Shown in pieces: positions 10,497 through 37,933 of a DNA stretch of 64,000 bases; positions within the stretch are counted from its first letter, which is position 1; each line of letters starts with the position of its first letter. This stretch comes from Thiobacillus denitrificans ATCC 25259 (GTDB lineage Bacteria; Pseudomonadota; Gammaproteobacteria; Burkholderiales; Thiobacillaceae): NCBI RefSeq assembly GCF_000012745.1, contig NC_007404.1:2728001-2792000 (forward strand), read 5' to 3'. The notes beneath the pieces were generated by a model. The model searched no databases. It saw only the letters and a list, made by a program, of their open reading frames with translations, and was not told the origin of the DNA. The translations under genes were made by a program, and so were the position numbers.

Positions 10497-10497
10497 C

Positions 10498-21492: not shown

Positions 21493-21948
<456 letters not shown>

Positions 21949-22090: not shown

Positions 22091-23422
22091 ATGGGAAGAC
22101 TTGCCGCCGTGACATGCGACACCGTGAAGCCCGACCCGAAGCGTGACCGCTTGCTCGGCGATGGTGACGGTCTGTTTTTGCGGATTCGACCGCACGGTAC
22201 GAAAACATGGGTAATTGAGTATGAGTTTCAGGGCCGTCGCACCAAATACACCATCGGTAGTTACTCGCGCAACGGCGCTCCAGGCGAGAGTATTCCAGAC
22301 TGGCTGGGGCACGGCCAGCAGTCCCTTACCCAGGCCCGGTCAATAGCCGGAAGTTGGAAAGCGGCGCGCAGAGGTGGCCACGACCCGGCGGCAGAGTGGG
22401 AAGCGCTGCAGGCCAAAGAAAAGCAAGCCGCGGCCGAACTGCAGGCGGCCCAGAAAGCCGAGCAACAGCAACCTACGGTCACGAACGCCATAGATTCCTT
22501 CATGCAGAAGATTATGGCCGGCAAAAAGAGCGCACCGGCGATCCGCTATCGCCTTGACCGGCTGGCTGCCCTGCTCGGCGACAAGAAAATTCGGGATGTG
22601 ACCCGGCAGGACGTGATCGCTGCCCTCGACACTATCGCCGAGGGGCTGCGGGAGGGGCAGACGGCCAAACAACTGGCAGGTGAGGTGTTGACCCAAGCCA
22701 AACGCGTCTGGCGTTTCGCAAGAGCGCGGGAATGGGTGTTGGTTTCCTGTGTGGAAGAACTAACCCGGCGGGACTTCGACGCCAAACCCCGTAAGCGCGA
22801 TGTGACACTGCGGTTCGACGAACTGGTCGTGGTCTGGCGAACGCTCGATGATCCCAGGAAATGCAAGGCCGACCCGGTGACGGTTGCGGCAATGAAATTG
22901 CTGATTTTGACCGGACAGCGGGAGAGCGAAGTTTGCGAGGCCCCCTGGAAGGAGTTCGACCTAGCCCAAGGGCTGTGGCGCATCCCCCCGGACCGCACCA
23001 AGGCGGGTCGCGCCCATCTCGTTCACCTCGCCCCCCAGGCGGTCAAGATCCTTGAAGATGTAAAGAAGATCACAGGAAAGGAACGCTTTGTTTTCGCTTC
23101 CCCCTTGAGGGACAAACAACCGGTCTATGGGCGATCCGTCAACAACGCCCTGAAGTCCCTATTTAGGAGAGGTATGTTGTCGAACGTAACTCCCTGCACC
23201 ATCCATGATTTCCGCAGGACGCTGGTAACCCGCCTCCCCGATCTCGGATTCGAACATTTTTTGGGTCACAAGATTGCCAACCATATGTTGTCAGGCGTGT
23301 CCGCCCACTACAACCACAACGCCTATGAAACAGATCGGGAGGCGGCACTGAAGGCATGGGCCGCACGCCTCGAAGTGCTGGCAACGGAAAACAACGTAAC
23401 CCAATTGCATCAAGCAGCATGA
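22091..23422 (+). CDS. int: P4-type tyrosine recombinase/integrase
   Basis: 443 residues with an N-terminal DUF4102-like arm-binding domain (LLGDGDGLFLRIRPHGTKTWVIEYEFQGRRTKYTIGSY), a core-binding region, and a catalytic domain with Arg277 (LTGQRESEVCEAPW), His372-x-x-Arg375 (IHDFRRT), His393 (FLGHK) and probable nucleophile Tyr407 (SAHYNHNAY). Intact by motif. AGGAG lies 7 bases before the ATG. It sits at the island end facing inward, as is usual for this family, and should integrate at the EVE start codon. Confidence 0.93.
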   Translation: MGRLAAVTCDTVKPDPKRDRLLGDGDGLFLRIRPHGTKTWVIEYEFQGRRTKYTIGSYSRNGAPGESIPDWLGHGQQSLTQARSIAGSWKAARRGGHDPAAEWEALQAKEKQAAAELQAAQKAEQQQPTVTNAIDSFMQKIMAGKKSAPAIRYRLDRLAALLGDKKIRDVTRQDVIAALDTIAEGLREGQTAKQLAGEVLTQAKRVWRFARAREWVLVSCVEELTRRDFDAKPRKRDVTLRFDELVVVWRTLDDPRKCKADPVTVAAMKLLILTGQRESEVCEAPWKEFDLAQGLWRIPPDRTKAGRAHLVHLAPQAVKILEDVKKITGKERFVFASPLRDKQPVYGRSVNNALKSLFRRGMLSNVTPCTIHDFRRTLVTRLPDLGFEHFLGHKIANHMLSGVSAHYNHNAYETDREAALKAWAARLEVLATENNVTQLHQAA

Positions 23423-23515
23423 TCGTTTTCGCCGCGCCTAGCCCGACAGGGCGAATACTGGGAACCCTTGCCCGACTGGCGCGGCAACCAACTCAAGGGG
23501 CGTGTAAGGGACGCC

Positions 23516-24400
23516 ATGTTTTTTTTAGATCAATTCGAGACGTTCGATCCGGTGTCGGGCGAGGTGCCATCCCACCCCTTTACGTATATGCCCGCTATCG
23601 CTTCGCGTGCGCGGGCAATCCTAAGATGCGGGGCAGATGAATGGTGCAGGGCAAAGCTCGCCTCGATTGCCAAACGAATTAATCGGGAACTTGACCGGTA
23701 TTTCAGCGACATCAAGATCTATGAAATTGAGCGCCTTCGCGAGCAGGCGGGGCTGTTGGAATCTATCGGGGGCGACCCCGACTGGCCACCGAACGAAGAA
23801 TATCTAGACATTCAGACCTGGGAAAACACAAGCGAGGTTGACGCGCTCAAATCCGTCGTTGAGAACCGCGATTCGCACCTCTTCTTCTCCAAAGACCCAC
23901 TACCAAAGTCAGAAGAGTACCCGGAGGGTAAAGACTATGAGCTGTTCGCGGTCCTTGCGCTGTGGATGCTGGCCGATGGCCTACGTTTCCTAAACACAAC
24001 GGCCGTAGGCTTAGCAATTGCAGGTGAATTCGCTCTAAAAGCGATGGACGCGGTTTGTTATGCCGAACACTTGCGTGAAGCTGAGTGGCTCGCTTCCTAT
24101 GTTGAGAAACAGGGCAACATCAAACTGACTGAAGCGCTGATAGAGCAGAAGAACGACGCGCAAAAACAAAAATCCGCCCTCGCTAAACGGCTAAACGTTG
24201 CACGTCATCAAAAGACAACCGAAGCAAAGGCAATGGCAATCGAAGAGTTCATGAAGGATCGCGACAGATTCCCCAGTGCCGAGAAAGCCGGTATTTATCT
24301 GGCCGACTGGCTTAGAGACCAGGGCCGCCCGTTCGAGCCAAGAACGGTTACCAGTTGGATTCGCGCTCACGCGACAGCAACGGGTTTCCGGTTTCGATAG
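23516..24400 (+). CDS. Hypothetical island protein next to integrase
   Basis: About 294 residues from the ATG at 23516 (MFFLDQFETFDPVSGE); a TTG at 23468 is possible, and the frame is open back to the integrase stop. The middle is predicted alpha-helical, with a helix-rich charged segment (ALIEQKNDAQKQKSALAKRLNVARHQKTTEAKAMAIEEFMKDRDRFPSAEKAGIYLADWL) and an end (FEPRTVTSWIRAHATATGFRFR) that looks like a DNA-binding helix pair. Not recognised as any named family. Its place between int and alpA suggests a part in element maintenance or control. Confidence 0.65.
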   Translation: MFFLDQFETFDPVSGEVPSHPFTYMPAIASRARAILRCGADEWCRAKLASIAKRINRELDRYFSDIKIYEIERLREQAGLLESIGGDPDWPPNEEYLDIQTWENTSEVDALKSVVENRDSHLFFSKDPLPKSEEYPEGKDYELFAVLALWMLADGLRFLNTTAVGLAIAGEFALKAMDAVCYAEHLREAEWLASYVEKQGNIKLTEALIEQKNDAQKQKSALAKRLNVARHQKTTEAKAMAIEEFMKDRDRFPSAEKAGIYLADWLRDQGRPFEPRTVTSWIRAHATATGFRFR

Positions 24401-24502
24401 CGGCCTCCGACGGAGACCGTACGGCCTCTACCGCGCAGTGTTCGGCATCCACCGGATAGGCCTTATTCAGCAAGCGCCATTCCATTTCAATGCGACCATG
24501 CA

Positions 24503-24521
24503 TTCCCGGATGGGCCGGGAA
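24503..24521. promoter_or_regulatory. Perfect dyad just upstream of the AlpA gene
   Basis: TTCCCGG, 5 bases, CCGGGAA, ending about 10 bases before the AGGAG ribosome-binding site of the AlpA gene. It may be an operator or a 5'-leader hairpin masking translation. Confidence 0.4.
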
Positions 24522-24543
24522 GCGCCTAACAGGAGCTTTAAGC

Positions 24544-24756
24544 ATGGCTGCACAACTCAAAACCGCCCTCACCATCCTGCGCCGTCGTCAGGTCGAGAAA
24601 CGTGTCGGGCTGACGCGATCCCCTCTCTACGCCCGAATCCAGGCTGGCACCTTTCCGAAACCCATTCGCCTCGGCAACGGCCGTGCGGTCGGCTGGATCG
24701 AGGCAGAAATTGACGCATGGCTTGACGAACAGATCGAAAAAAGCCGCAAGGCATAA
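24544..24756 (+). CDS. AlpA-family regulator/excisionase-like protein
   Basis: A 70-residue winged-helix MerR/AlpA-type protein: ILRRRQVEKRVGLTRSPLYARIQAGTFPKPIRLGNGRAVGWIEAEIDAWLDEQIEKSRKA is a textbook AlpA core with the WxxxEIDAWL end. AGGAG is 9 bases before the ATG at 24544. AlpA proteins control integrase expression or excision in P4-like elements. It heads a run of closely spaced small genes. Confidence 0.87.
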   Translation: MAAQLKTALTILRRRQVEKRVGLTRSPLYARIQAGTFPKPIRLGNGRAVGWIEAEIDAWLDEQIEKSRKA

Positions 24757-24767
24757 GGGGGATGATG

Positions 24768-24860
24768 ATGCACCTTCCCGAAAAGCAAGATCGCTTCGTG
24801 CCGGCCGCAGTCCCTGCGAAATGGGCAACGCTGGAGCGCCATGATGGCCAAGAAGACTAG
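24768..24860 (+). CDS. Small ORF overlapping the next island gene
   Basis: 30 residues (MHLPEKQDRFVPAAVPAKWATLERHDGQED), preceded by AAGGGGG. Three in-frame ATGs stand in a row (24762, 24765, 24768); the last is best spaced. It ends inside the following gene, overlapping by 20 bp, so it may serve as a translational coupling leader. No homology recognised. Confidence 0.35.
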   Translation: MHLPEKQDRFVPAAVPAKWATLERHDGQED

Positions 24861-25578
24861 CAAATCATTTGAATTACCAAGCGGGCATTACGTGGCCCTT
24901 CCTCACGCGCTGCTGGACAGCGCAGCTTTCATGGGGGCATCTCACAGGACGCGCTCCCTGATCGTGGAACTCATGCGCCAGCACAACGGGGTAAATAACG
25001 GCCACCTTCACCTCGCGCTCGGTTGGCTCAAGGCACGTGGGTGGGCGTCTGCCGACGGGGTCCAGAAATCAAAGCAAGAAGCGCTCGAGCGCGGCCTGAT
25101 CATCAAGACGCGCGAAGGCGGCCTGAATATCGGCCCGGACCGGTACGCGCTGACTTGGCTGCCAATCACAAACTTCGTCGGACTTCAGTTGTCGCGGCAG
25201 GACTATCATCCCGGCCGCTATCTCTTCATGGGCAAGCCGCCAGCCACCAGAGGCGAAAAACCGCCAGTACCTATTCGTCAGGCTGCCAAGCGCATCGTAA
25301 AACGCAGTGACTATTCCGTCGTGCGGAGCGACCCAGCACCGGCTGCCGGAATGGTGAAAGCCGTACCTATTCCGCCTGACGGAGCGAAAACCACCATTTT
25401 TTATGCTTCGGCCATTCCGCCCAACGGAAACAATGAATTGTTACCAATCCCCCGAGGGAGCTCTCGACGTGTAGTTGGTGCGCGAGGACGTAGTGGGAAG
25501 CGCAAACAGGCGCTCGCCCCCCAGAACGCGTCGGGCAATTTCCCTAATGATTTCGGCAAAATCCGGGAGAAACAATAA
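24841..25578 (+). CDS. Island protein with winged-helix-like N terminus (possible replication/control protein)
   Basis: 245 residues. The N-terminal 120 residues (YVALPHALLDSAAFMGASHRTRSLIVELMRQHNGVNNGHLHLALGWLKARGWASADGVQKSKQEALERGLIIKTREGG) read like a winged helix-turn-helix of the type found in phage and satellite replication proteins. The C-terminal half is basic, rich in Pro, Gly and Ser, and probably disordered. Repeated AIPP/PIPP-type motifs occur there. No helicase or primase motifs are seen. Its stop TAA is immediately followed by the next ATG. Confidence 0.65.
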   Translation: MMAKKTSKSFELPSGHYVALPHALLDSAAFMGASHRTRSLIVELMRQHNGVNNGHLHLALGWLKARGWASADGVQKSKQEALERGLIIKTREGGLNIGPDRYALTWLPITNFVGLQLSRQDYHPGRYLFMGKPPATRGEKPPVPIRQAAKRIVKRSDYSVVRSDPAPAAGMVKAVPIPPDGAKTTIFYASAIPPNGNNELLPIPRGSSRRVVGARGRSGKRKQALAPQNASGNFPNDFGKIREKQ

Positions 25579-26223
25579 ATGGGCGGTTTTGGGAGCGGGC
25601 GACGTTGCCAAGACGGCAAGGCGATTACACGCGACCGCCATGCGCTAGACGTGCGCCATCTCCAACGGAAAAATCTGCTGCGCCCAGGGCTCTTCTTCAG
25701 CCTGGACTGGAAACGCAACCGCCAGACGCTGGCCTCTAGCGTCGTTCGGGTAGAAGCTGACCAACTGGTAATGAGCTATCGACACCAGAACGTCGCCGGC
25801 GAATGGCAGGACAGAGAATGTCCCGTGCGGCTGGACTGGACGGCCTGCAACTATGGTGGCCAAAGGACATGGATGATCTGCCCTGCCAGCGGGTGCGGGA
25901 GGCGCGTGGGCGTGCTGTATCTGGGAAATACAGGTAATTTCGCCTGCCGGCACTGCTGCGAGTTGGTTTATGACACCCAGCGCGAAACGGATGGGCAGCG
26001 AGCAATGCGGCGTGTGAACAACATCCGAAAAGTACTGGGCTGGAGGCTTGCCCTTCTAAATGGCGGTGGTGAAAAACCCAGGGGAATGCAGTGGCGAACG
26101 TTCCGGAAGCTAAAATCTCAGCACGACGCACACCTCAGGTTGGCGCTAAACAAAATGGGCGAACGGCTTGGCATGGCGAGCCGGAAACTTGTCGGCCTGC
26201 AAAAGCGGTTGGATAAAGGGTAA
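25579..26223 (+). CDS. Zinc-ribbon hypothetical protein of the island
   Basis: 214 residues starting MGGFGSGRR. A zinc ribbon is formed by CPASGC and, about twenty residues later, CRHCC, followed by ELVYDTQRETDGQRAMRRVNNIRKVLGW and a basic C terminus. The N-terminal GGxGSGR and the ribbon recur in phage- and island-borne hypothetical proteins, but no function is known to me. It begins directly after the preceding stop, so the two genes are coupled. Confidence 0.7.
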   Translation: MGGFGSGRRCQDGKAITRDRHALDVRHLQRKNLLRPGLFFSLDWKRNRQTLASSVVRVEADQLVMSYRHQNVAGEWQDRECPVRLDWTACNYGGQRTWMICPASGCGRRVGVLYLGNTGNFACRHCCELVYDTQRETDGQRAMRRVNNIRKVLGWRLALLNGGGEKPRGMQWRTFRKLKSQHDAHLRLALNKMGERLGMASRKLVGLQKRLDKG

Positions 26224-26324: not shown

Positions 26325-28355
26325 ATGCGAACTGTTGTCCGCATGCGAGGAGCCCGGATTACAGCCATGAGTAAGAGCCACGAACTATCCAACTTCATCT
26401 GGAGCATCGCCGATCTGCTCCGCGGCCCTTACCGCCCACCACAATACGAACGTGTCATGCTGCCCTTGGTCGTACTGCGACGCTTCGATTGCGTCCTCGA
26501 AAGCACCAAGGATGCTGTGTTGGCCAAATATGCCCAGTACCAGGGCAAGCTGGAAGGCGACGCGCTAGACGGCGTGCTCAACAAAATTTCCGGACAGCGC
26601 TTTCACAATCATTCCCCGCTCAGTTTCGAGAAACTGAAGGGCGATCCGGATAACGCTCACCTGCATCTAGTCTCGTACATCAACGGCTTCTCCGAGAATG
26701 TCCGCAAGATTTTTGAGCGCTTCGAGTTCGGCAATGAAATCGAACGCATGCGCGAGCACAACATCCTGTTTCTCGTCATCAAGAAGTTCTGCGAGGTCGA
26801 TCTTCACCCCGGCGCCGTCGACAACATCGAGATGGGCCTTCTCTTCGAAGACTTGATCCGGCGCTTCAACGAACAGGCGAATGAGACCGCAGGTGATCAC
26901 TTCACGCCACGCGAGGTAATACGCCTGATGGTGAGTCTTCTGTTCATGCACGATGATGACTTACTCAGCAAGCCGGGCACTGTTCGCAAGATGCTTGACC
27001 CGACCTGCGGCACGGGCGGAATGCTTTCTGAAACCAGAAAATACTTGCGGGAACACCAATCCGGCGCTCGGCTGTTTGTATATGGCCAGGACTTTAACCC
27101 ACGCTCATATGCGGTAGCAGCGTCAGATCTGTTGTTGCGGACGAATCTCGCGGACGCCGAAACCTCGACAATCAAGTTCGGCGACACCCTGATTGACGAC
27201 CAATTCCCTGGCGAGCGGTTTGATTACTTCCTCGCCAATCCCCCATTTGGAGTTGACTGGAAGCGGCAGCAGAAGGATGTCGTGCGAGAGCATGAAAAGC
27301 AGGGTTTCGCTGGCCGTTTCGGAGCCGGTACGCCGCGCGTCAACGACGGTGCGCTCCTGTTCCTGCAACACATGGTCAGCAAGTTTGAACCGGTTGATCC
27401 CGCCAATAATCTAGATGGTTCCAGGCTGGCCATCGTTTTCAACGGTTCGCCGCTCTTCACCGGCGGCGCCGGCTCCGGTGAAAGCGAGATTCGCAAATGG
27501 ATCATCGAGAACGACTGGCTCGAGGCCATCGTCGCCATGCCCGAACAGATGTTCTACAACACCGGCATTGGCACTTATGTCTGGGTGGTTACCAACCGCA
27601 AGGAAGCTCGTCGCCGGGGAAGAATTCAACTGATTGATGGCCGCGACCGTTGGCAGTCGCTGCGCCGCAGTCTGGGCGACAAGCGTCGAGAGTTCTCCGA
27701 TGCCCACATCACGGATATCGTCCGCGAATATGGCGATATGCGCGACAACGCCACCAGCAAGGTGTTCGACAACGCCGATTTCGGCTACAACCGCCTGACC
27801 ATCGAGCGTCCCTTGCGCCTCGCATTCCAGATTACGCTCGAACGCAAGGAACGCTTCCTCGATGCTTGCCCGGAGCTGTTGAATGACCTTCAGGCCATCG
27901 ACAAAGCCATCGGCCGCGAAGCCAGTCTCGACTGGAATGCCATCTGGAAACAGGCGCAGCTCACCTTGAAGGAGCGCGACAGCAAATGGCGGGCGCCGCA
28001 GATCAAGGCATTCCGCGAGGCTTTCACGGAGATCAATCCGAAGGCCGAACCCGTCATTGCCAAGAAAGCCGGCGGCAAAGTCGAGTATGAACCCGATCCC
28101 AAACTGCGCGATTTCGAGAACGTGCCGCTCACGGAAGACGTGGAAGCCTATTTCGAGCACGGGGTACGCCCGCACGTGGCGGATGCCTGGATCGATCACG
28201 CCAAGACGAAGGTCGGGTACGAGATCAACTTCAATCGCCACTTCTACCGATTCACCCTGCCGCGTCCGCTGGCCGAGATCGATGCCGACCTGAAGCGCGC
28301 CGAAGAAGAAATCGTGAGGCTGCTGCGCGAAGTGACAGCGGAGTCGCGGGCATGA
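26325..28355 (+). CDS. hsdM: Type I restriction-modification DNA methyltransferase subunit HsdM
   Basis: 676 residues from the ATG at 26325, which has AGGGAAG four bases upstream; family similarity starts at MSKSHELSNFIWSIADLLRGP (ATG 26367), an alternative. The N6-adenine methyltransferase motifs are intact: SAM-binding DPTCGTGGML near residue 226 and catalytic NPPFG near 305. With HsdS it methylates the recognition site to protect host DNA. First gene of a six-gene overlapping operon; its stop overlaps the next start as ATGA. Confidence 0.94.
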   Translation: MRTVVRMRGARITAMSKSHELSNFIWSIADLLRGPYRPPQYERVMLPLVVLRRFDCVLESTKDAVLAKYAQYQGKLEGDALDGVLNKISGQRFHNHSPLSFEKLKGDPDNAHLHLVSYINGFSENVRKIFERFEFGNEIERMREHNILFLVIKKFCEVDLHPGAVDNIEMGLLFEDLIRRFNEQANETAGDHFTPREVIRLMVSLLFMHDDDLLSKPGTVRKMLDPTCGTGGMLSETRKYLREHQSGARLFVYGQDFNPRSYAVAASDLLLRTNLADAETSTIKFGDTLIDDQFPGERFDYFLANPPFGVDWKRQQKDVVREHEKQGFAGRFGAGTPRVNDGALLFLQHMVSKFEPVDPANNLDGSRLAIVFNGSPLFTGGAGSGESEIRKWIIENDWLEAIVAMPEQMFYNTGIGTYVWVVTNRKEARRRGRIQLIDGRDRWQSLRRSLGDKRREFSDAHITDIVREYGDMRDNATSKVFDNADFGYNRLTIERPLRLAFQITLERKERFLDACPELLNDLQAIDKAIGREASLDWNAIWKQAQLTLKERDSKWRAPQIKAFREAFTEINPKAEPVIAKKAGGKVEYEPDPKLRDFENVPLTEDVEAYFEHGVRPHVADAWIDHAKTKVGYEINFNRHFYRFTLPRPLAEIDADLKRAEEEIVRLLREVTAESRA

Positions 28356-30256
28356 CAGCTGTCGAGCTGCTCGAAAGCCTCAATCTACTCGACGAGCACG
28401 AGCGCATCGAGGCCAAGCGGGCCTCCGAGGCAGGCAAGTCGGTGCTGGAAACCGTCTGCGCCTTCGCCAACGAGCCGGGACTGGGTGGCGGCTGGATCGC
28501 GCTAGGAATCGTGCGCGAAGAGATGGCGCTTTTCCCGGCCTATGAGGTCGAGGGGATCACCCACCCCGACAAACTCTCGGCGGACATCGCCAACCAATGT
28601 CGCGATATGTTCAACATCCCGTTACGAGTGGATATCGCGACCGAAAACGTACACGGCAAGAACGTCGTCGTGGTCTTTGTCCCCGAGGCACAGCCGCAGG
28701 ACAAGCCGATCTTCTTCAAGGCGCAGGGACTGCCGCGTGGCGCATTCCGGCGCATCGGTAGCACCGATCAGCGCTGCACCGACGACGACATGGCCGTGTT
28801 CTACCAGGGGCGTCAGCAGGAAAGCTTCGACGCCGGCATCGTTGCCGATGCCACGCAGGATGATCTTTCGCCCGAGGCCATTGCCGATTACCGAAAATCT
28901 CGTGGCGATGCCAACCCGGATGCCGAAGAGTTGCGCTGGTCCGACGAGGAACTACTGCAGGCGCTCGGCAGCATGCGCCGCGACCAAAAGGGCGAATGGA
29001 AACCGACCGTTGCCGGCCTGATCCTGTTCGGCAAGCCCTCGGCCCTCCGCCGCTGCTTCCCCATGACCCGCGTCGATTACATCCGCGTGCCGGGCCGTGA
29101 ATGGGTACCCGACCCCGACCGGCGTTTCGATACCGTCGAGTTGCGCGACCCGCTGTTCCGCCTGATCCGCCGTGCCCAGGCCGCCGTGCTTGACGACTTG
29201 CCCAAGAGCTTCGGTCTGACCGAAGGCGAACTCCAGCGGCAGGACAAACCGGTGATTCCCCTGCGCGTCATCCGCGAAGCCCTGGTCAATGCCCTTATGC
29301 ACCGCAGCTACCGCAGCCACAGCCCGGTGCAGATCATCCGCTACGCCAACCGGCTGGAAATCCGCAACCCCGGCTTCTCCCTCAAATCGCCCGAGCATCT
29401 GGGCGAGCCGGGCTCCCAGCCGCGCAATCCCAAGATTGCCGCCGTGCTGCACGAGACCCGCTTCGCCGAAACCAAGGGCAGCGGCATCCGGGTGATGCGC
29501 GAGAGCATGGAACAAGCGGGCCTTACTCCGCCGCTGTTCGAGTCCGACCGGGGGGCTGACCAGTTTGTCGCCCGTTACTTCTTCCATCACTTCCTCGGCG
29601 AGGATGACATCGCCTGGCTCGCCCAATTCCGCGACCTGCATCTCTCCGACGAGGAGGCCAAGGCGCTGATCGTCGTCCGCGAGGCGGGTGCCATCGACAA
29701 CGCCACCTACCGGGAACTGAACAAGGTGGATGCCCTTGCGGCCAGCGGGGCCTTGCGCAGGCTGCGCGACGCCGGCCTGCTGGCCCAAAAGGGTCGAGGT
29801 TCCGCCACTTATTACGTGCCGACCGACCGCCTTGGGGCCGACGGAGATGGCTTACCGACCAAGTCGGATGCGTTGTCTACCAACCCCGAGGGCTTACCTA
29901 CCAACCCGGAAGCACTATCTGACAACCCCGAGGACTTGCCGACCAACCCCACCCCCGAGGAGGAAACCGCACGCCGGGCGCTCTTGGCCGAGTTGCCGGG
30001 CGACTTGGCGGCGCGCGTCGGCGCCCTGGGGCGCCGCAGCACCCCCGAGGAAGCTCAGGTCGTAGTCGTCGAGGTCAGCCGCCTGCGAGCGTGGCGGGCG
30101 GAAGAACTGGCCTTGCTACTGCATCGGAATTCTCGTCATGTGCGCAATACCTATCTGCGGCCCTTGATGCGGGACGGGCGATTGGTGATGACCAATCCGG
30201 ATGAGCCCAACGATCCGCAGCAGGCATATCGGGCAGCGGAGGTTCCCAGTGAATAG
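28352..30256 (+). CDS. AlbA_2/Schlafen-type domain protein with GHKL-like ATPase domain
   Basis: 634 residues. An N-terminal AlbA_2 domain (IEAKRASEAGKSVLETVCAFANEPGLGGGWIALGI and KPIFFKAQGLPRGAFRRIGS) is followed by an ATP-binding HATPase_c_4-like domain (IREALVNALMHRSY, LEIRNPGF, AETKGSGIRVMRESM), a winged helix, a linker of five 7-residue repeats, and a second helical C-terminal domain. Such proteins are often embedded in type I restriction loci, but their activity is unsettled. Starts inside the hsdM stop (ATGA) and overlaps hsdS by 8 bp. Confidence 0.82.
   Translation: MTAVELLESLNLLDEHERIEAKRASEAGKSVLETVCAFANEPGLGGGWIALGIVREEMALFPAYEVEGITHPDKLSADIANQCRDMFNIPLRVDIATENVHGKNVVVVFVPEAQPQDKPIFFKAQGLPRGAFRRIGSTDQRCTDDDMAVFYQGRQQESFDAGIVADATQDDLSPEAIADYRKSRGDANPDAEELRWSDEELLQALGSMRRDQKGEWKPTVAGLILFGKPSALRRCFPMTRVDYIRVPGREWVPDPDRRFDTVELRDPLFRLIRRAQAAVLDDLPKSFGLTEGELQRQDKPVIPLRVIREALVNALMHRSYRSHSPVQIIRYANRLEIRNPGFSLKSPEHLGEPGSQPRNPKIAAVLHETRFAETKGSGIRVMRESMEQAGLTPPLFESDRGADQFVARYFFHHFLGEDDIAWLAQFRDLHLSDEEAKALIVVREAGAIDNATYRELNKVDALAASGALRRLRDAGLLAQKGRGSATYYVPTDRLGADGDGLPTKSDALSTNPEGLPTNPEALSDNPEDLPTNPTPEEETARRALLAELPGDLAARVGALGRRSTPEEAQVVVVEVSRLRAWRAEELALLLHRNSRHVRNTYLRPLMRDGRLVMTNPDEPNDPQQAYRAAEVPSE
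29846..29950 (+). repeat. Five tandem 21-bp repeats encoding a heptad linker
   Basis: Five degenerate 21-bp units encode DGLPTKS, DALSTNP, EGLPTNP, EALSDNP and EDLPTNP. The protein pattern (acidic, x, Leu, Pro/Ser, Thr/Asp, Asn, Pro) is better conserved than the DNA, which suggests selection on the repeat rather than recent expansion. Confidence 0.8.
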
Positions 30257-31451
30257 TCAATCGCTGAGTGCTCCCATAAGCTGGCGCCGGATGAAGCTGA
30301 AGTACCTGGTTGCATTGAAAAGTGGAGAGGCCATTCCGGGAGAGTCAATCAAAGAGACTGGCGACTACCCAGTCTATGGAGGCAACGGTTTCCGTGGCTA
30401 CACCAACAGTTTTACGCACGAAGGCGAGCGCATCCTGATCGGTCGGCAAGGCGCTCTCTGTGGCAACATCAATTATGCGGAGGGAAAATTTTGGGCTACG
30501 GAGCACGCCATTGTTGCTACTCCGAAAACTAACTTCGAGACGGCCTGGCTCGGTGAAACCCTGCGGGTCATGAACCTCAATCAGTACTCGCAGTCGGCTG
30601 CGCAACCGGGTATAGCTGTAGAAGTCGTTGAGAACCTTGTGATTGCTGTTCCCCCAGAGGGGGAACAGCGCCGCATAGCAGATTCCTTGCACCAACTTTC
30701 AGCGCCGATTGACAAGCTGATCTTAGAAAAACAGAAACTGCTTACCCTACTTACTGAAAAACGCCGTACCGTCATCGCCGACTTTCTGATCAAGGGACTC
30801 AACAAGGACACACCACGCCGTGACTCTGACATTCCATGGCTCGGCGAGATTCCGGCCCATTGGAAAGTCGAACGTGCCAAGTGGCTTTTCACCGAGCGTG
30901 ATGACCGCTCCGATTCTGGCGACGAGGAGTTGCTGACGGTGTCACACCTGACCGGCGTCACCAGTCGCGCCGAGAAGGACGTGAACATGTTCATGGCCGA
31001 GAGCCTGGAAGGCTACAAGCGTTGCGAGGCGGGCGACTTGGTCATCAATACCTTGTGGGCATGGATGGGTGCGATGGGCATTGCACGCCAACCCGGCATC
31101 GTCAGCCCGGCCTACAACGTCTATCAGCCTGTGGCACAACTTGACCCGGAATACATTGATCTGCTGGTGCGCACTCCACGCTTTGTGGAGGAAATCACTC
31201 GCTATTCCAAAGGTGTTTGGTCATCGCGTCTGCGTCTATACCCTGAGGGACTCTACGAGGCATGGTTGCCTGTGCCTCCCCTTGATGAGCAGCGGGATAT
31301 CGTAGCCCGTGTGCAAGCCGAGACCAGGAAATTGGATGCCCTTGCGGAAGCCACCGAACGAACGGTTACCGTGCTCCAAGAACGACGTTCGGCATTGATC
31401 TCGGCCGCAGTGACCGGGCAACTTGATCTAGGGGACGCCCATGCAAATTAA
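30249..31451 (+). CDS. hsdS: Type I restriction specificity subunit HsdS
   Basis: 400 residues from a GTG at 30249 that overlaps the previous stop by 8 bp; the in-frame ATG at 30201 lies well inside the upstream gene. Two target-recognition domains are visible, the first around residues 15-140 (YPVYGGNGFRGYTNSF, ILIGRQGALCGN) and the second from IPWLGEIPAHWKVERAKWLF. Each is followed by a conserved coiled-coil spacer (EGEQRRIADSLHQLSAPIDKLILEKQKLLTLLTEKR and LDEQRDIVARVQAETRKLDALAEAT). Target sequence cannot be predicted by eye. Confidence 0.92.
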   Translation: MNSQSLSAPISWRRMKLKYLVALKSGEAIPGESIKETGDYPVYGGNGFRGYTNSFTHEGERILIGRQGALCGNINYAEGKFWATEHAIVATPKTNFETAWLGETLRVMNLNQYSQSAAQPGIAVEVVENLVIAVPPEGEQRRIADSLHQLSAPIDKLILEKQKLLTLLTEKRRTVIADFLIKGLNKDTPRRDSDIPWLGEIPAHWKVERAKWLFTERDDRSDSGDEELLTVSHLTGVTSRAEKDVNMFMAESLEGYKRCEAGDLVINTLWAWMGAMGIARQPGIVSPAYNVYQPVAQLDPEYIDLLVRTPRFVEEITRYSKGVWSSRLRLYPEGLYEAWLPVPPLDEQRDIVARVQAETRKLDALAEATERTVTVLQERRSALISAAVTGQLDLGDAHAN

Positions 31452-32877
31452 CCGCCTTACGCTGACCAATTTTCGCGGGTTGACGAATTCCGTCTTGGAC
31501 TTTGCGCCCGGGTTCAATCTGGTCGTCGGTGTAAACGGCGTCGGCAAGACGGCTGTCCTTGAGGCCCTGCGAATTCTCTTAGCGAAAGCCCTGCCGTCAT
31601 TTGCGGAGGTCAGAGGATTTCCGGGAATTGGCCTTACAAAAGATGACATCACCATTGATCGGAAGCAGGCTGCGATCGAAGTCAGCTTCACCCATCAAGC
31701 GCATACATTCTCACTGCTATTGAGCGACCAGCTTGAAGTAGTACGTGATGCCGTGGATGAGCAAAAGGGACTGAAGGACATACGAGATATCGACGAGCTA
31801 GCAAGCCTCCGCCATGGTCAGCGCCCAGAGCGAGGTGATCCCAGGTTGGAGGGAACGCTACGGGGCCAAACGAGCGAACGCCCCCGAGCATCTGGCCAAC
31901 TCAGCCCAACACCTGACAGGGCGCTTAAGAAATCGAAGCCTCAACCAATCGTGCTGTACTTTTCCGTGCGGCGCGCTGTTCCTAGTCCTGGTACTCCAAA
32001 GACAAAGGCCGGGACACCCTACCAAGGCATATTTGAGATCGAACGTGGCCTTGAACTGGGGAAAATCATCGAGTGGTGGAATAGCAAGGCAACGGTGGCT
32101 CGCGAAGCGCCTGACTCCCGCTCAGCCAAGCAATTAACGACGACATGCAACGCTCTGGAGCGGCTGCTCCCGCATTTGAGCGATTGGAAAGTCGAAGATG
32201 GGAATTTCACGGTTTGTAAAGTGGCAGACGTAGGAGTGTTGAACGACGAAAGCGGAGAGTTTGAAGTCAAACAGGAGACCCGACGCTTACCCGTTCAGTT
32301 CTTGTCTGATGGCGAACGTAGCCTAATCGCTATCGGAATTGACATCGCCTACCGGCTTGCATCATTGAATGAAGATTCAGAGACCCCTCTGGACGATGGT
32401 GAAGGCATAGTGTTGATTGATGAACTCGACCTGCATTTACATCCGCAATGGCAAAGAACGGTTGTCGAGTTACTACGCACCGCATTTCCCAAGCTTCAAT
32501 TTATCTGCACCACTCATTCGTTATTCCTGATCCAATCTCAGCGCATGGGCAATTTGATTCAGCTGGATCGCATCGGAGACGAAGAAGAATCCGCCGAGCA
32601 ATACCACAATCAAAGTATCGAAGACATCGCGGAAGAAGTTCAAGGAATAGATTTGCCACAACGAAGCAAACGACACGTTGAGTTGATGCTTGCGGCATCT
32701 GAATACTACAGAGCTTTGAAAAAAGCTGAAGACGACCCGAACATTCCTATTGAGGAGCTAAAGGAAAAGTATGAAGCTTTAAGTCTTCGATATTCCGCCG
32801 ATCCGTTGGTCGCTGCAGCATTGGATTTTCGATGGGAAACCTTCGTGTTTAAAAGAAACCATGCGACCCGTCGATAA
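31441..32877 (+). CDS. ptuA: Septu-like ATPase (PtuA family), AAA/ABC-type
   Basis: 478 residues. Walker A GVNGVGKT at 30-37 after an N-terminal INRLTLTNFRGL, an ABC-like signature LSDGERSLIAIG, and Walker B GIVLIDELDLHLHPQW followed by the switch histidine region TTHS. This is the RecF/SMC-like overcoming-lysogenisation-type ATPase class. The partner HNH gene overlaps its end by 17 bp, the arrangement of Septu (PtuA-PtuB) antiphage systems and of retron Ec78-type effectors; no reverse transcriptase is present here. Codon use is more AT-rich than in the hsd genes around it. Overlaps hsdS by 11 bp. Confidence 0.82.
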   Translation: MQINRLTLTNFRGLTNSVLDFAPGFNLVVGVNGVGKTAVLEALRILLAKALPSFAEVRGFPGIGLTKDDITIDRKQAAIEVSFTHQAHTFSLLLSDQLEVVRDAVDEQKGLKDIRDIDELASLRHGQRPERGDPRLEGTLRGQTSERPRASGQLSPTPDRALKKSKPQPIVLYFSVRRAVPSPGTPKTKAGTPYQGIFEIERGLELGKIIEWWNSKATVAREAPDSRSAKQLTTTCNALERLLPHLSDWKVEDGNFTVCKVADVGVLNDESGEFEVKQETRRLPVQFLSDGERSLIAIGIDIAYRLASLNEDSETPLDDGEGIVLIDELDLHLHPQWQRTVVELLRTAFPKLQFICTTHSLFLIQSQRMGNLIQLDRIGDEEESAEQYHNQSIEDIAEEVQGIDLPQRSKRHVELMLAASEYYRALKKAEDDPNIPIEELKEKYEALSLRYSADPLVAAALDFRWETFVFKRNHATRR

Positions 32878-33565
32878 GGGTAAGGATCTGGGGAGTTTCA
32901 AGCCTTACAACAAGGCCTGCGCTCCTTTGCAGGACAGGTTAGGAGAGTATTGTTCATATTGTGAGCGCTGGATTGCGGCCGCAATTGAAGTCGAGCACAT
33001 ACTCCCTAAGAAAGCCAATCCGTCTCAGAAGTATAGATGGAGCAATTTTTTGCTCGCCTGCAAGAATTGCAATACAGGCAAGGGATCTGATCAAATCATA
33101 GTGACCGACTACCTTTGGCCGGATTTAGACAACACCTTCTTGGCCTTCTGTTATGACGATGAAGGTCGCGCATACCCAAACCCTAGATTGCCGCCGGCGA
33201 TCCTAGAAAAAGCAAAAGCAACCTGGACGCTGACGAACCTAAACTGGCACCCAGACACTACATTCACCGGAATGGTAGCGCCGTCAGAGAAGGATCATCG
33301 GCATTCGCACCGAAAGCAGGCATGGATATACGCAAGCGACAAGCGCAATCAGTTGCTTCAGTACGACACGCCGGACAGAAGAGTATCGGTAGCGAAAGAT
33401 GCTCTTCAGCGAGGCATGTTTTCCGTATGGATGACGGTCTTTAACACCACATCTGAGTTGGATCGTGAAATACGAAGACTGCTAATAGAGAATTTTGTAG
33501 GAACAGCCACTAATTGTTTTGACCGGCTTGGCAATGCACATAGAAGCTCAACGGGTCAAATATGA
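32861..33565 (+). CDS. ptuB: Septu-like HNH endonuclease (PtuB family)
   Basis: 234 residues. An HNH core with structural zinc cysteines: CSYCERW (31, 34), EVEHILPKK with His46, and WSNFLLACKNCNTGKG with Cys67, Cys70 and Asn71. This is the layout of PtuB/retron-associated HNH proteins. PtuB cleaves DNA or tRNA-like targets under PtuA control in characterised members; the target here is unknown. The gene starts inside ptuA and ends in an ATGA overlap with hsdR. Its AT-rich composition matches ptuA, suggesting the pair moved as one cassette. Confidence 0.82.
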   Translation: MRPVDKGKDLGSFKPYNKACAPLQDRLGEYCSYCERWIAAAIEVEHILPKKANPSQKYRWSNFLLACKNCNTGKGSDQIIVTDYLWPDLDNTFLAFCYDDEGRAYPNPRLPPAILEKAKATWTLTNLNWHPDTTFTGMVAPSEKDHRHSHRKQAWIYASDKRNQLLQYDTPDRRVSVAKDALQRGMFSVWMTVFNTTSELDREIRRLLIENFVGTATNCFDRLGNAHRSSTGQI

Positions 33566-36500
33566 ATCCCAATGTCCAAGAATGCAGTTTCGAGGAAACA
33601 ATCGAGGCACATCTATTCGCCAACGGCTACGCATCGCTTCCAGCATCGGACTACGATGCAGCGCTGGCCTTGTTTCCCACTTCTGTACTCACCTTCGTCC
33701 GCGCCACTCAACTCAAGGAATGGGCCAAGCTAGAAGCCCTGCACGGCGCCAACACCGAAGCCACCGTCCTCAAAGATCTGACCCACTGGCTCGACACGCA
33801 CGGCACGCTTGCCGTGCTGCGCAATGGATTCAAGTGTTATGGCCGCACCCTGCGTGTTGCCTATTTCAAGCCGGCCCACGGCATGAATCCCGAGTTGGCG
33901 GCCCAGTACGCGGCCAACCGCGTTGGCGTCATCCGGCAGTTGCGCTACAGCCAGCGCAATACCAATGAGCTGGACCTGGTGCTGTCTATCAACGGAATTC
34001 CGGTGTTCACGGCCGAGCTGAAAAACCCGATGACCGGGCAGACGGTAACGAACGCTATTGCCCAGTATCAGCACGACCGCGACCACCGCGAGCCGCTGTT
34101 CGAATTCAAGCGCCGGGCGCTGGTTCACTTCGCCGTCGATACCGAGCAGGTGTTCATGACGACCCGACTGGCCGGCAGTGCCACGCATTTCCTGCCCTTC
34201 AATAAGGGGCTGGATGGCGGTGCCGGCAATCCGCCTGATCCGGCGGGCCGCGCTTATCGCACCGCTTATCTCTGGGAAGAGGTGTGGCAACGCGACAGCC
34301 TGCTGGACATTTTTGCGCGCTTCATACACTTGCAGGTGGAGGAGAAACGCACCGACGATGGGCGGAAGATCAAGAAGGAGACCATGATCTTTCCGCGCTA
34401 CCACCAGTTGCGGGCGGTGCGCGAGCTAGAAGACGCGGCAAGGACGGAGGGCCCCGGCCATAACTATCTGGTGGAGCATTCGGCGGGCAGCGGCAAGAGC
34501 AACACTATCGGCTGGCTGGCGCACCGCTTGGCCTCGCTGCACAATGAGTCCGACCACAAGGTATTCGATTCGGTAATCGTCATCACCGACCGCCGCGTGC
34601 TGGATCGCCAGTTGCAGGACACGATCTACCAATTCGAGCACCGACAGGGCGTTGTGCAGAAGATCGACGAGGACTCGCGGCAACTCGCCGAGGCGCTGAC
34701 CAACAGCGTGCCGATCATCATCTCCACTTTGCAGAAATTCCCTTTCGTTGCCCGGCAACTGGCCCGGATGGCCGAGGAGCGTAGGGAGGGGGCTGACGGA
34801 ATACTGCCCACCCGTCGTTGCGCGGTGATCATCGATGAGGCCCACAGTTCGCAATCCGGCGAGACGGCTACGGACCTCAAGGAAGTGTTGGGTGGCCACG
34901 TATTGCGAGAAGAAGCGGCGCGCTATGCCGTCGATGAAGGTGTCGACAACCTGGACGAGCTTTACCGCAGCATGGCCAAGCGCGGGCGCCAGACGAATCT
35001 CAGCTTCTTCGCCTTTACGGCCACCCCCAAGCACAAGACCCTGGCCGTGTTCGGGCGGGATGAGGCAGGCAAGGCCGGCCAACCTTTCCACCGTTACACC
35101 ATGAGTCAAGCCATTGAAGAGGGCTTCATCATGGACGTGCTGAAGAACTACACGACCTACGCCACCTACTACAAGCTGGTCAAAGCCAGCGAGGACGACC
35201 CCAACGTCGAGCGCAAGCAGGCCGCCAAGGCACTGGCTCGCTTCATGCGATTGCACCCCTACAACATTGCACAGAAGACTGAGGTGATGGTCGAGCATTT
35301 CAACGCGGTCACCCGTCACAAAGTTGGTGGCAAGGCAAAAGCAATGGTGGTGACCGGGTCCCGACTGGAAGCGGTTCGCTACAAGCTAGCCTTCGATGCG
35401 TATATCCGTGAGAAGGGTTATAGCTGGATCAAGACACTGGTCGCATTTTCCGGCGAGGTAGTGGATGACGAGCTGCCGGGCAAGACCTGGACCGAGGTCG
35501 GTATGAACGGAGGGATCAAAGAAGGGGTGCTGCCGGAGAAATTCGACTCGTCCGAGTACCAAGTGTTGCTAGTCGCCGAGAAGTACCAGACGGGCTACGA
35601 CCAGCCGCTGCTGCACACAATGTACGTCGACAAACGTCTCGCCGGCATTCAGGCGGTGCAAACCCTGTCGCGCCTGAATCGCATGCACCCGCTCAAGGAA
35701 GACACTTTCGTTCTGGATTTCGTGAACGACCGACAGGAGATCAAGGAAGCCTTCAAGCAATACCACGAAGGCGCCGAGATGGGTGAGGAAGCCGATCCGA
35801 ACCAGATGTACGCCATCAAGGCGGAACTGGATGCGTCGGGTATCTACCTGCTGGAAGAGATGCAGCGCTTCATCGGCATCTATTTCAAGCCGAAGCAGCG
35901 ACAAAGCCCTGCCGATCATCAGGCAATGAACGCCGCGCTTGATCCGGCCGTGGATCGCTTCCGGGCAGTGCAGGAGGAAGATGAGGAACAGGCCGAGTTA
36001 TGGCGCGGGAAGCTCAGTGCCTTCCGCAACCTCTACGCCTTCCTGTCGCAGGTCGCCCCCTACCAGGATTCCGATCTCGAGCGCCTGTATACCTTCCTGC
36101 GCTTTCTGTCGCCCAAATTACCCAAGCGCACCACAGGCCAACGCTACAGCTTCGATGACGAGGTGCGACTGGAGTATTACCGCCTGCAGAAGATCAGTGA
36201 GGGATCGATCAGTCTGCGTGATGGCAAGGCAGAACTGCTGGACGGTCCCGGCGAAGTCGGTTCCGGAGCGCGCCACGACGAAGATGTGCCGCTCTCAAGT
36301 CTGATCGATGTGATCAACGAACGGTTTGGCACGGACTTCACCGATGCCGACCAATTGTTCTTTGACCAGATTATCGAGGCGGCCATGGAGGACGGTTCGC
36401 TGCTCGAGGCCGCTGCCGTCAACCCAGAGGAGAAGTTTGCCCTGCTATTTGCTGGCCTATTGGAAACGCTGTTCATCGAGCGCATGGAGCAGAACGAGGA

Positions 36501-36591
36501 TATCTTTGCGCGCTTCATGAACGAGCGGGACTTTCAGAGCCTTGTCTCAAAATGGATTTCTGGGAAAGTCTATGCCCGACTCCGATCCTAA
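33562..36591 (+). CDS. hsdR: Type I restriction endonuclease subunit HsdR
   Basis: 1009 residues. N-terminal PD-(D/E)xK nuclease with Asp138 (NELDLVLSI) and Glu152/Lys154 (FTAELKN), an SF2 translocase with Walker A SAGSGKSNT near 308-316, DEAH at 425-428 and the later motif FTATPKHKTL, then a helical C-terminal domain that binds the methylase core. All key residues are present, so the restriction activity is probably intact. ATGA overlap with ptuB; it is separated from hsdS by the Septu-like pair. Confidence 0.95.
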   Translation: MNPNVQECSFEETIEAHLFANGYASLPASDYDAALALFPTSVLTFVRATQLKEWAKLEALHGANTEATVLKDLTHWLDTHGTLAVLRNGFKCYGRTLRVAYFKPAHGMNPELAAQYAANRVGVIRQLRYSQRNTNELDLVLSINGIPVFTAELKNPMTGQTVTNAIAQYQHDRDHREPLFEFKRRALVHFAVDTEQVFMTTRLAGSATHFLPFNKGLDGGAGNPPDPAGRAYRTAYLWEEVWQRDSLLDIFARFIHLQVEEKRTDDGRKIKKETMIFPRYHQLRAVRELEDAARTEGPGHNYLVEHSAGSGKSNTIGWLAHRLASLHNESDHKVFDSVIVITDRRVLDRQLQDTIYQFEHRQGVVQKIDEDSRQLAEALTNSVPIIISTLQKFPFVARQLARMAEERREGADGILPTRRCAVIIDEAHSSQSGETATDLKEVLGGHVLREEAARYAVDEGVDNLDELYRSMAKRGRQTNLSFFAFTATPKHKTLAVFGRDEAGKAGQPFHRYTMSQAIEEGFIMDVLKNYTTYATYYKLVKASEDDPNVERKQAAKALARFMRLHPYNIAQKTEVMVEHFNAVTRHKVGGKAKAMVVTGSRLEAVRYKLAFDAYIREKGYSWIKTLVAFSGEVVDDELPGKTWTEVGMNGGIKEGVLPEKFDSSEYQVLLVAEKYQTGYDQPLLHTMYVDKRLAGIQAVQTLSRLNRMHPLKEDTFVLDFVNDRQEIKEAFKQYHEGAEMGEEADPNQMYAIKAELDASGIYLLEEMQRFIGIYFKPKQRQSPADHQAMNAALDPAVDRFRAVQEEDEEQAELWRGKLSAFRNLYAFLSQVAPYQDSDLERLYTFLRFLSPKLPKRTTGQRYSFDDEVRLEYYRLQKISEGSISLRDGKAELLDGPGEVGSGARHDEDVPLSSLIDVINERFGTDFTDADQLFFDQIIEAAMEDGSLLEAAAVNPEEKFALLFAGLLETLFIERMEQNEDIFARFMNERDFQSLVSKWISGKVYARLRS

Positions 36592-36670
36592 ACCGATGGA
36601 CTCTATTGGCGAGCCGTACTTTAGCCCCGCGGGTGACTACTTCCACTGCCCCGCCGGCGCACCGTGCTGA
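36572..36670 (+). CDS. Short ORF at the end of the defence operon, possibly a truncated gene
   Basis: 32 residues (starts MPDSDPKPMDSIG, ends FHCPAGAPC), starting inside hsdR with a 20-bp overlap, as the other operon genes do. The length and sudden stop suggest a remnant of a seventh gene lost at the island edge, but coding status is unproven. Confidence 0.3.
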   Translation: MPDSDPKPMDSIGEPYFSPAGDYFHCPAGAPC

Positions 36671-36762
36671 AGGGAGCGCTAGAGAAAAGGTAACGCAGAC
36701 CAGAGGCTGGCCCGACCTACTTATCCAGCGGCACAGTCAGCAGGGGACAGACACCGCCCAAT

Positions 36763-36783
36763 TCCCACCCAATATCCCACCCA
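36763..36783. repeat. Two TCCCACCCA direct repeats near the far island end
   Basis: Copies at 36763-36771 and 36775-36783, the same motif as the triplet before the integrase. Consistent with paired arm-type integrase sites at both element ends. Confidence 0.55.
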
Positions 36784-36849
36784 AAACGACCACACGCTCG
36801 ATTTTCCCGAAAACGCCCCCCTTCCGAAGCCCTGTTTTCGCTAGATCGA

Positions 36850-36894
36850 TTACATCCTCTGCAAACCATATGCGCTACTCAGCCAGTAACGCAT
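36850..36894 (-). pseudogene. Severed 5' end of the EVE gene at the far attachment copy
   Basis: Codons 1-5 of the EVE gene (MRYWL) are duplicated here by the attachment repeat and read into island DNA, ending at TAA after 14 residues. This marks where the native EVE promoter and ribosome-binding site now point. Confidence 0.65.
36879..36894. repeat. Island attachment site, far end (att)
   Basis: Second copy of the 16-bp repeat. It lies in a larger imperfect inverted repeat, ATGCGCTACT (36870-36879) against AGTAACGCAT (36885-36894), one mismatch, with a 5-base centre, the form expected for a tyrosine-recombinase core. Confidence 0.85.
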
Positions 36895-37051
36895 GGTTTC
36901 AACAACTCCTTGGTCAAGTCGAAGGGGTTACGCAGGAGGGGGTTTCCGCGTGGACTCTACGGCGGCGGCTCGGCGCGCGAGGGCCTCGGTTCACGAAGGC
37001 CGCGCGCTCGCCGTCAAGGAAGCAAGTGCGGCGCGGCCGCCAGGCGGCGGC

Positions 37052-37933
37052 TCACGACCGCTTGATCAGCGTGCCGACGCCTTCGGGCGTCAACACCTCG
37101 AGCAGCAGCGCGTGCTCGACGCGGCCGTCGATGATGTGGGCGGTCTTGACGCCGCTGTTGACCGCGTCGACCGCGTAGCCGACCTTGGGAATCATGCCGC
37201 CGCTGATCGTGTCGTCGGCGATCAGATCGCTGATCTCGCGCGGCGTGAGCCCGGTCAGCAGCTTCTTGTCTTTGTCGAGAACGCCCGGGGTGTTGGTCAT
37301 GAAGATGACCTTCTCGGCCTGCAATACGCCGGCGATCTTGCCGGCCGCGACGTCGGCGTTGATGTTGTAGGCGTTGCCCTCGGCATCGGTGCCGAGCGGC
37401 GCCACCACCGGGATGAAGTCGCGCGCGTCGAGCACCTGGATGATCTCCGGATCGATGCCGGTGATCTCGCCGACCTGGCCGATGTCGAGCATCTCGTCGG
37501 CCTTCTCCTTGCTCTTCACGAGCATCTTCTTGGCGTGGATGAAGTTGCCGTCCTTGCCGGTGAGGCCCACGGCGCGGCCGCCGTGCTTGTTGATCAAGGT
37601 GACGATGTCCTGGTTGACCAGCCCGCCGAGCACCATCTCGACCACGTCGAGCGTCTCCTCGTCGGTCACCCGCATGCCCTGAATGAATTCGCTCTGCTTG
37701 CCGATGCGCTGCAGCAACCCCGCGATCTGCGGGCCACCGCCGTGCACGACGACCGGGTTCATGCCGACGAGTTTGAGCAGCACCACGTCCTTGGCGAACG
37801 CTTCCATCAAGTGACGTTCGGTCATGGCGTTGCCGCCGTACTTGATGACGATGGTCTTGTCGTAGAAGCGCTGGATGTAGGGGAGCGCCTCGGACAGGAT
37901 GTAGGCCTTCTCGGCGGCGGTGTGGACGGTCAT
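37052..37933 (-). CDS. argB: Acetylglutamate kinase
   Basis: 293 residues. N-acetyl-L-glutamate kinase with the phosphate-binding KYGGNAM near residue 34, [29 protein letters not shown], and [31 protein letters not shown]. It carries out the second step of arginine synthesis. The N-terminal [17 protein letters not shown] helix is typical of the hexameric, arginine-sensitive form. Before island insertion the EVE gene seems to have followed it in the same direction. Confidence 0.95.

Follow-up and report, generated by a model that had tools for sequence, protein, structure and literature searches.

Introduction

Defence modules embedded in type I restriction-modification (R-M) operons have been described before, and the present analysis concerns such an arrangement in Thiobacillus denitrificans ATCC 25259: a Septu type I pair, ptuA and ptuB, which lies between hsdS and hsdR in a 64-kb stretch of its genome (positions 2,728,001 to 2,792,000 of NC_007404.1, hereafter the window; the genome is one contig of 2,909,809 bases). 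In EcoprrI, too, the type I R-M operon encloses an ATPase-nuclease module, PrrC (PMC3874165); PrrC, however, is one protein sequestered by the type I enzyme, whereas the window holds two genes, one of them for an HNH nuclease, of a pair that varies beside the same hsd genes. An RptR-regulated island uses the same hsdS-hsdR insertion point for a two-gene module, DarTG2 or an ATPase gene pair, these being modules other than Septu (PMC12255303). In the type I operon of Vibrio cholerae VPI-2 the two-gene system TgvAB is embedded in a similar manner and is also found alone elsewhere (PMC11411939); TgvAB is a type IV modification-dependent restriction system, whereas the window pair is a Septu. Septu itself has been cited as embedded in Hma (PMC12255303), which often occurs with Septu type I (PMC8565338); its partner in the window is a type I R-M system instead. 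The window pair resembles Septu type I in being an ATPase and HNH pair with near whole-length PADLOC matches and with the Walker and HNH residues, and differs in lying inside a type I R-M operon and in being weakly similar to the solved Ec78 PtuB.

The initial annotation of the window had singled out the interposition between hsdS and hsdR as unusual, a judgement not supported by comparison with the DarTG2 or ATPase pair found there (PMC12255303), with PrrC in EcoprrI (PMC3874165) and with TgvAB in Vibrio (PMC11411939). There are thus published precedents both for defence pairs at the hsdS-hsdR junction and for Septu inside another system. Among the matches listed in our literature search there was no report of Septu in type I operons, a preprint on embedding (bioRxiv 2024.01.29.577857) being known through citation alone. 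What is new is a Septu-rich HsdR clade and the junction-precise exchange of the cassette. The reading that we favour, with a probability of roughly 0.6, is that the locus is an integrative defence island and that its type I operon offers a slot for cargo between hsdS and hsdR, which in this case holds a type I Septu pair that would act in its own complex as a second layer.

A Septu pair within an overlapping type I R-M operon

Positions 26325-36591 hold six plus-strand open reading frames (ORFs) in a gapless row: hsdM, for the type I DNA methyltransferase (26325..28355); an AlbA_2/Schlafen-type gene with HATPase_c_4 and a Fic-like_C region by Pfam (28352..30256); hsdS, for the specificity subunit, with a GTG start (30249..31451); ptuA, for the Septu ATPase (31441..32877); ptuB, for the Septu HNH nuclease (32861..33565); and hsdR, for the type I restriction and translocation subunit (33562..36591). 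The six-gene overlapping operon of the initial annotation was reproduced in its ORFs, its order and all of its overlaps, which are 4 nt for hsdM/AlbA_2 (28352-28355), 8 nt for AlbA_2/hsdS, 11 nt for hsdS/ptuA (31441-31451), 17 nt for ptuA/ptuB (32861-32877) and 4 nt for ptuB/hsdR (33562-33565). The 8-nt overlap requires that hsdS start at GTG 30249, shortly 5' of which lies a GGAGG; the longest-ORF start, ATG 30201, gives 56 nt. From the usual HsdM N-terminus, we presume that hsdM may well start at ATG 26367 rather than at 26325. No sigma-70-like promoter was matched between 25900 and 37000 in a scan limited to this type, so that the claim of a single promoter has gene packing as its sole basis. 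GC content at third codon positions is 0.53 in ptuA and ptuB, 0.61 in hsdS, 0.72-0.75 in hsdM and hsdR and 0.79 in the AlbA_2 gene; by these differences the operon is a mosaic.

The type I gene set at the locus (HsdM, HsdS and HsdR) is complete. HsdM matched Pfam N6_Mtase (2e-51) and HsdM_N (7e-23) as well as PADLOC PDLC03029 over nearly its full length (7e-272), and carries NPPF at 291 (numbered from start 26367). HsdS matched Methylase_S (7e-23) and PADLOC Specificity_I (1e-84), and HsdR matched SWI2_SNF2 (2e-25), HSDR_N (4e-15), a T1R_D3-like family and TIGR00348 (7e-58, under the model cut-off). The HsdR residues D138, E152 and K154, a Walker A motif at 307 and a DEAH motif at 425 are present, which by motif we take to belong to a PD-(D/E)xK-like nuclease and an SF2 motor. 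The product of the AlbA_2 gene matched SLFN_AlbA_2 (2e-12) and HATPase_c_4 (2e-18) in Pfam.

PtuA and PtuB matched PADLOC PDLC00271 (6e-85) and PDLC00315 (6e-76), both near full length, and PtuB also Pfam HNH (1.5e-7), in agreement with their initial assignment as an ATPase/HNH pair of the PtuA-PtuB type; ptuA adjoins ptuB, as in Septu type I. Among solved chains PtuA matched the Ec83 retron ATPase (3e-26) and the PtuA of 8ee4 (5e-25), and PtuB gave a weak match to the Ec78 PtuB chain (7e-4). The PtuA motifs are intact (Walker A K36, Walker B D327/E328) and the PtuB motif residues H46 and N62 are present. In another Septu, antiphage activity needs both motifs, and the residues H75 and N91 are required (PMC13096335); H46 and N62 have the same spacing of 16 residues and probably correspond to this pair. 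Retron I-A/Septu type II was considered as an identity and rejected: a Pfam scan of the ten island proteins gave no reverse transcriptase domain, and the matches to the retron PtuA/PtuB models of NCBIfam, like those to its HsdM and HsdR models, were all under cut-off.

Recurrence of the embedded pair

PtuB of the window kind is rare in the lineages around the window, being found in 8 of 398 genomes of the phylum including its own (E 1e-10), in its own genome only among 100 of the family (E 1e-6), and in none of the plasmid and phage collections searched. A PtuB alignment was also run against named genomes, and the best 80 of 197 relatives were taken; at least 10 of the 80 loci have the order hsdM-hsdS-ptuA-ptuB-hsdR without AlbA_2. 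These are L021 (Dankookia), L022 (Corallococcus), L025 (Phormidium), L026 (Verrucomicrobia), L029 (Pseudanabaena), L032 (a cyanobacterium), L034 (Porphyrobacter), L038 (Rhodothermales), L042 (a proteobacterium) and L058 (Limnohabitans). The figure is a lower bound, as several named loci end at contig ends; L056, in which hsdM, hsdS, ptuA and ptuB are followed by a contig end, was excluded from the 10, and the HsdM/S/R profiles were derived from the window's family, so that other type I families may escape them. A gap of 0.9-1.4 kb separates ptuB from hsdR in L022, L025, L029 and L032. Thus the five-gene core of the originally proposed order recurs in other genomes, but the six-gene order was found nowhere else among the loci examined.

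A Septu-rich HsdR clade

A second sample was drawn by HsdR and was therefore blind to Septu. HsdR searches of 398 genomes (best 27 of 63 non-self matches taken) and of 100 genomes (13 of 22) gave 40 stretches, most of them those with the highest scores, and the slot was readable in 38; the other two, L165 and L182, lacked a readable hsdS and are not among the 35 outside relatives counted below. A second blind draw from 369 genomes of the class contributed all 8 of its 8 HsdR matches. The HsdR tree has 46 rows, 13 distant rows of 59 having been excluded, none of them with ptuAB. The HsdR of the window falls into a clade of 21 (support 100/100), 18 of which have ptuAB; 10 of these 21 members are not blind, namely the window itself and nine loci from the PtuB sample, all of that set but L026. 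The ptuAB of L026, in another HsdR clade, is a separate insertion.

Among the 11 blind clade members, ptuAB lies between hsdS and hsdR in eight (L143, L144, L146, L147, L170, L171, L224 and L225), compared with none of the 35 blind relatives outside the clade (Fisher p ~6e-7, kinship ignored). The clade boundary was set after the first sample had been seen, and the fresh draw alone gave 2 of 4. Identity to the window HsdR is 67-74% for the 11 and at most 61% for the 35. A near-absolute association with the clade, suggested by 16/17 in a first tree, was abandoned, as that tree mixed PtuB-chosen with HsdR-chosen loci and the second blind draw gave the 2/4 just mentioned. Outside the clade, L173 has a single AAA ATPase of 610 aa whose score with the PtuA profile is weak, and ptuB is absent. 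In L229 hsdS is a 179-aa piece. The HsdR of highest identity (about 89% in two long segments) comes from a remnant with an internal deletion, L230 354-2413, in a genome of the same family that also holds the intact L170; the remnant starts about 350 bp from the contig end and its slot is unreadable.

Contents of the hsdS-hsdR slot

The three blind clade members without ptuAB have other genes in the slot: IetAS, by similarity, in L145 (3913-7522, turned with hsdR on the plus strand), a 639-aa OLD/GajA-like gene in L223, and PD-Lambda-5-like genes together with AlbA_2 in L222. In L144, the sister of L145, IetAS and ptuAB are stacked in one slot (5820-9435, turned likewise). Part of the slot occupants were scanned against family libraries; outside the clade, those of defence type included TIR with FRG, GmrSD, Fic, an Mrr-type nuclease, an M78 peptidase and AlbA_2, and those without defence assignment DUF4268, DUF4357, HNH_2 and Bro-N. 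A SMODS synthetase and a SLATT_4 effector, a CBASS-like pair, lie in the slot of L175 (7464-8910). The slot genes of L178 and L227, each scanned against one library, had no match, and seven slots (L153, L155, L156, L161, L169, L174 and L226) contain no ORF of 110 aa. Many of the scanned non-ptuAB occupants are known or candidate defence genes, and by these comparisons the hsdS-hsdR junction is a defence-cargo slot, of which ptuAB is the usual occupant in the HsdR clade of the window.

Two slots of the PtuB sample hold further genes. In the cyanobacterial L025, ptuAB is followed by two genes, one for a HigB-like toxin and one that weakly matches a helix-turn-helix; in L032 two similar 135-aa ORFs (1621-2028 and 5002-5409) stand on either side of the ptuAB cassette and are possibly traces of its insertion.

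The many unrelated occupants and the empty slots among relatives would also be expected if the slot were a mere recombination hotspot, with ptuAB a passenger that draws no benefit from its location, and the hsdS-hsdR junction has indeed been named a potential recombination hotspot (PMC12255303). Such neutral insertion is nevertheless very improbable in view of the intact ORFs and motifs, of the short overlaps on both sides of the exchanged pairs described in the following section, and of the uneven distribution of ptuAB, 8/11 versus 0/35.

Exchange of the ptuAB cassette

A case for a cargo slot is provided by L170 and L171, from one genus in the window's family. Their HsdM, HsdS and HsdR are 98%, 94% and 98% identical, and their PtuA and PtuB 46% and 31%. 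At the DNA level the two operons are 95% identical as far as some 20 bp beyond the hsdS stop; this identity returns 12 bp into hsdR, and between these break points a single 158-bp piece of ptuA could be aligned. Because the hsd products are so alike, the Septu proteins so different, and the break located at the gene junctions, the ptuAB cassette must have been exchanged beside near-identical hsd genes. L021 and L143 display a comparable pattern, with 90% identity in HsdR, 31% in PtuA and 25% in PtuB. In L025, L029 and L032, HsdR (95-96%), PtuA (86-97%) and PtuB (94-96%) are all alike and HsdS is divergent.

At least three kinds of PtuB occupy the slot: that of the window, with CSYCER...VEH; a second with CCYC...IEHW (L144, L146, L147 and L171); and a third with CAYTG or CGYTG and (I/V)EHL (L143, L170, L224 and L225). 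Those scanned match PADLOC PtuB families; L144, L146 and L171 were placed by sequence alone. With longest-ORF starts, hsdS and ptuA overlap by 4 nt in L143, L144, L146, L147, L170 and L171, and ptuB and hsdR by 4 nt in L143, L146, L170 and L171. As the packing is tight across different versions of PtuAB, the short overlaps are a trait of the operon type and not of the PtuAB of the window.

The trees point in the same direction, above all for PtuB. In the PtuB tree (87 rows) at least five changes of the embedded state are forced on starred branches, and the window PtuB groups with PtuBs of Methylococcaceae and Gallionella that have no same-family hsd gene in the DNA read (support 99). In the PtuA tree (86 rows, excluding L059, which has no adjacent PtuA of 300 aa) three such changes are needed; the three PtuAs from cyanobacterial slots are placed within stand-alone ones, and no others clearly derive from these. 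L224 and L225 are in neither tree. Co-divergence of PtuAB with the restriction enzyme, considered as a further possibility, finds no support in the identities and the trees.

Several observations weigh against the cargo-slot reading. ptuAB is commoner in one HsdR clade than a neutral slot would predict. The PtuAs of the window, of 12 clade loci and of L026 form, with one stand-alone row, a single set of 15 (support 99); most of the PtuA pattern would be explained by a single main lineage that changes fast or is exchanged within its own kind, with fewer replacements from outside than for PtuB. Moreover, both trees were built on divergent proteins by quick searches and include some long branches (1.64 for the window PtuA, and a long-branch warning for the PtuB tree), which makes single placements unsure.

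Proposed working of the operon

We propose that one transcript would carry the methylase and specificity genes first, the cargo next and the restriction subunit last, and that translation of hsdR would be coupled to whichever cargo precedes it. PtuA and PtuB would be co-expressed with the restriction enzyme and act as their own complex, in which PtuA may sense infection and then free the PtuB nuclease against tRNA or DNA. PtuAB of Septu EcB88 and of retron Eco7 cuts tRNA-Tyr, another Septu is reported to act on nicked DNA, and related PtuAB pairs serve as effectors without type I partners (PMC13096335, PMC11555353). In the window the pair would form a second layer of defence, directed at phages that evade restriction through modified DNA or anti-restriction proteins, and embedding would provide shared dosage, shared regulation and joint transfer, without PtuAB being fitted to one HsdM/S/R set. 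The findings support shared expression and layered defence and count against a co-fitted machine.

One alternative is that the pair is a guardian of the PrrC type, in which HsdMSR holds PtuAB inactive or is monitored by it, so that inhibition of restriction by a phage leads to release, cutting of tRNA or DNA, and arrest of the infection. In the window an ATPase-nuclease module does lie inside the type I R-M operon, as prrC does in EcoprrI, where the type I complex sequesters PrrC (PMC3874165), and PrrC has been cited as a guardian of R-M (PMC12707154). PtuAB, like PrrC, joins an ABC-type ATPase with a nuclease, some PtuAB cut tRNA-Tyr, ptuAB is tied to one HsdR clade, and most slot PtuAs fall into one group. 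The pair is, however, not a PrrC homologue, that is, one polypeptide with an anticodon nuclease part, but two proteins with an HNH nuclease. Very different PtuAB stand beside near-identical HsdM/S/R, and unrelated modules occupy the slot in the same clade, which gives no sign of lineage-specific docking. HsdR of L170 and L171 differ at 22 of 1011 positions, six at the last residues and five in 758-777, and these might bear on contact. We consider guarding by contact unlikely. The same exchange of a PtuA and PtuB with 46% and 31% identity beside near-identical hsd products, and the same unrelated modules, speak against the earlier suggestion that the Septu pair is restrained by HsdS/HsdR, if this is taken as one co-fitted machine.

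A coupling by signal and not by docking, in which the act of restriction provides the trigger (DNA ends, DNA fragments or the consumption of ATP by HsdR) and a generic PtuAB senses it, would account for both the clade preference and the exchange of cassettes. One Septu PtuAB has been reported to act on nicked DNA (PMC11555353), and DNA breaks activate RloC, which is homologous to PrrC (PMC12707154). Yet the embedded arrangement was not seen in 70 of the 80 PtuB loci (some of them cut by contig ends) and PtuAB does not generally depend on this R-M family, which makes such a signal quite doubtful as the explanation. Very tentatively, one type I clade may be pictured as a chassis with a default Septu effector that is swapped in place, above all in the PtuB kind and with tight translational junctions after every swap, and is triggered by a product or a failure of restriction, not by contact, so that PtuAB of many versions would fit.

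Returning to the slot that we favour, genomes in which a nearly unchanged restriction enzyme is accompanied by different Septu cassettes are natural experiments, and offer ready swap partners. Septu, IetAS, OLD-like, TIR, GmrSD and CBASS-like modules replace each other in one slot, and their comparison helps to separate shared expression from physical coupling of embedded defence systems, which co-location alone cannot do. Reading the hsdS-hsdR contents in the HsdR family of the window is, in addition, a route to new defence genes.

The AlbA_2 gene and the hsdM-hsdS junction

The AlbA_2 gene is a second accessory gene of the operon, between hsdM and hsdS. Beyond the window, ptuAB occupies the slot in 18 loci; the hsdM-hsdS junction could be read in 17 of them (L034 ends before it), none of which has AlbA_2 there; the six-gene order as a conserved system was accordingly ruled out, the window being the only readable ptuAB-slot locus with AlbA_2 at hsdM-hsdS. 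A search of 398 genomes with the AlbA_2 protein (E 1e-60) gave one match besides the window's own. Relatives occupy the space between hsdS and hsdR in other operons (L150, L159, L162, L181 and L222) and, in L213, lie between hsdS-like and hsdM-like genes of another R-M. In L225, which has ptuAB in the slot, an AlbA_2-like gene (1899-3578, 559 aa, profile score 103) is located upstream of hsdM.

Within the AlbA_2 gene of the window, about five imperfect 21-nt repeats (29846-29950) encode a linker rich in Pro, Thr and Asn (LPTNPEA-like). In L149, L151 and L152 two gene families recur between hsdM and hsdS, one of 376-412 aa (PDC-M32A in L149) and one of 126-161 aa, and this junction is a second slot in these loci.

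The mobile island and its surroundings

The operon sits on an integrative mobile island. Two perfect 16-bp direct repeats, 14,946 bp apart, bound it: an att-like left copy at the start of an EVE-domain gene (21933..21948) and a right copy adjoining an argB-like gene (36879..36894); at up to one mismatch the window contains these two copies only. Next to the left repeat, on the plus strand, is a tyrosine recombinase (integrase) gene (22091..23422; Phage_integrase 6e-17, Arm-DNA-bind_3 8e-15, phrog_1 integrase 5e-46). GC content is 0.574 in the island and 0.669 in the remaining window. Between the integrase gene and hsdM, three plus-strand ORFs of 310, 245 and 214 aa (23468..26223) had no family match, all three in Pfam and PHROG, and those of 245 and 214 aa also in PADLOC and NCBIfam.

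The gene that flanks the island on the right (37052..37933, minus strand; AA_kinase 5e-47) is presumably argB, the name being given from its sequence. Two further ORFs, 36552-37178 and 36893-38614, were rejected as members of the operon: neither has a family match, and the latter, on the plus strand, is antisense to the AA_kinase gene. In two of eight stretches from the same genus (L207 and L211) argB and the EVE gene are adjacent, with one copy of the repeat, bearing one mismatch, at the EVE start, and these represent the empty integration site; argB was not found in the stretch for five of the eight. In L210, which belongs to a further species of this genus, argB and EVE are separated by about 3 kb of different DNA (7570-10642), and the site is likely an integration hotspot.

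Beside a TauE gene, about 120 bp (21351-21472) match many separate places in the same genus at about 71-84% identity, and this stretch is a dispersed intergenic repeat of the genus.

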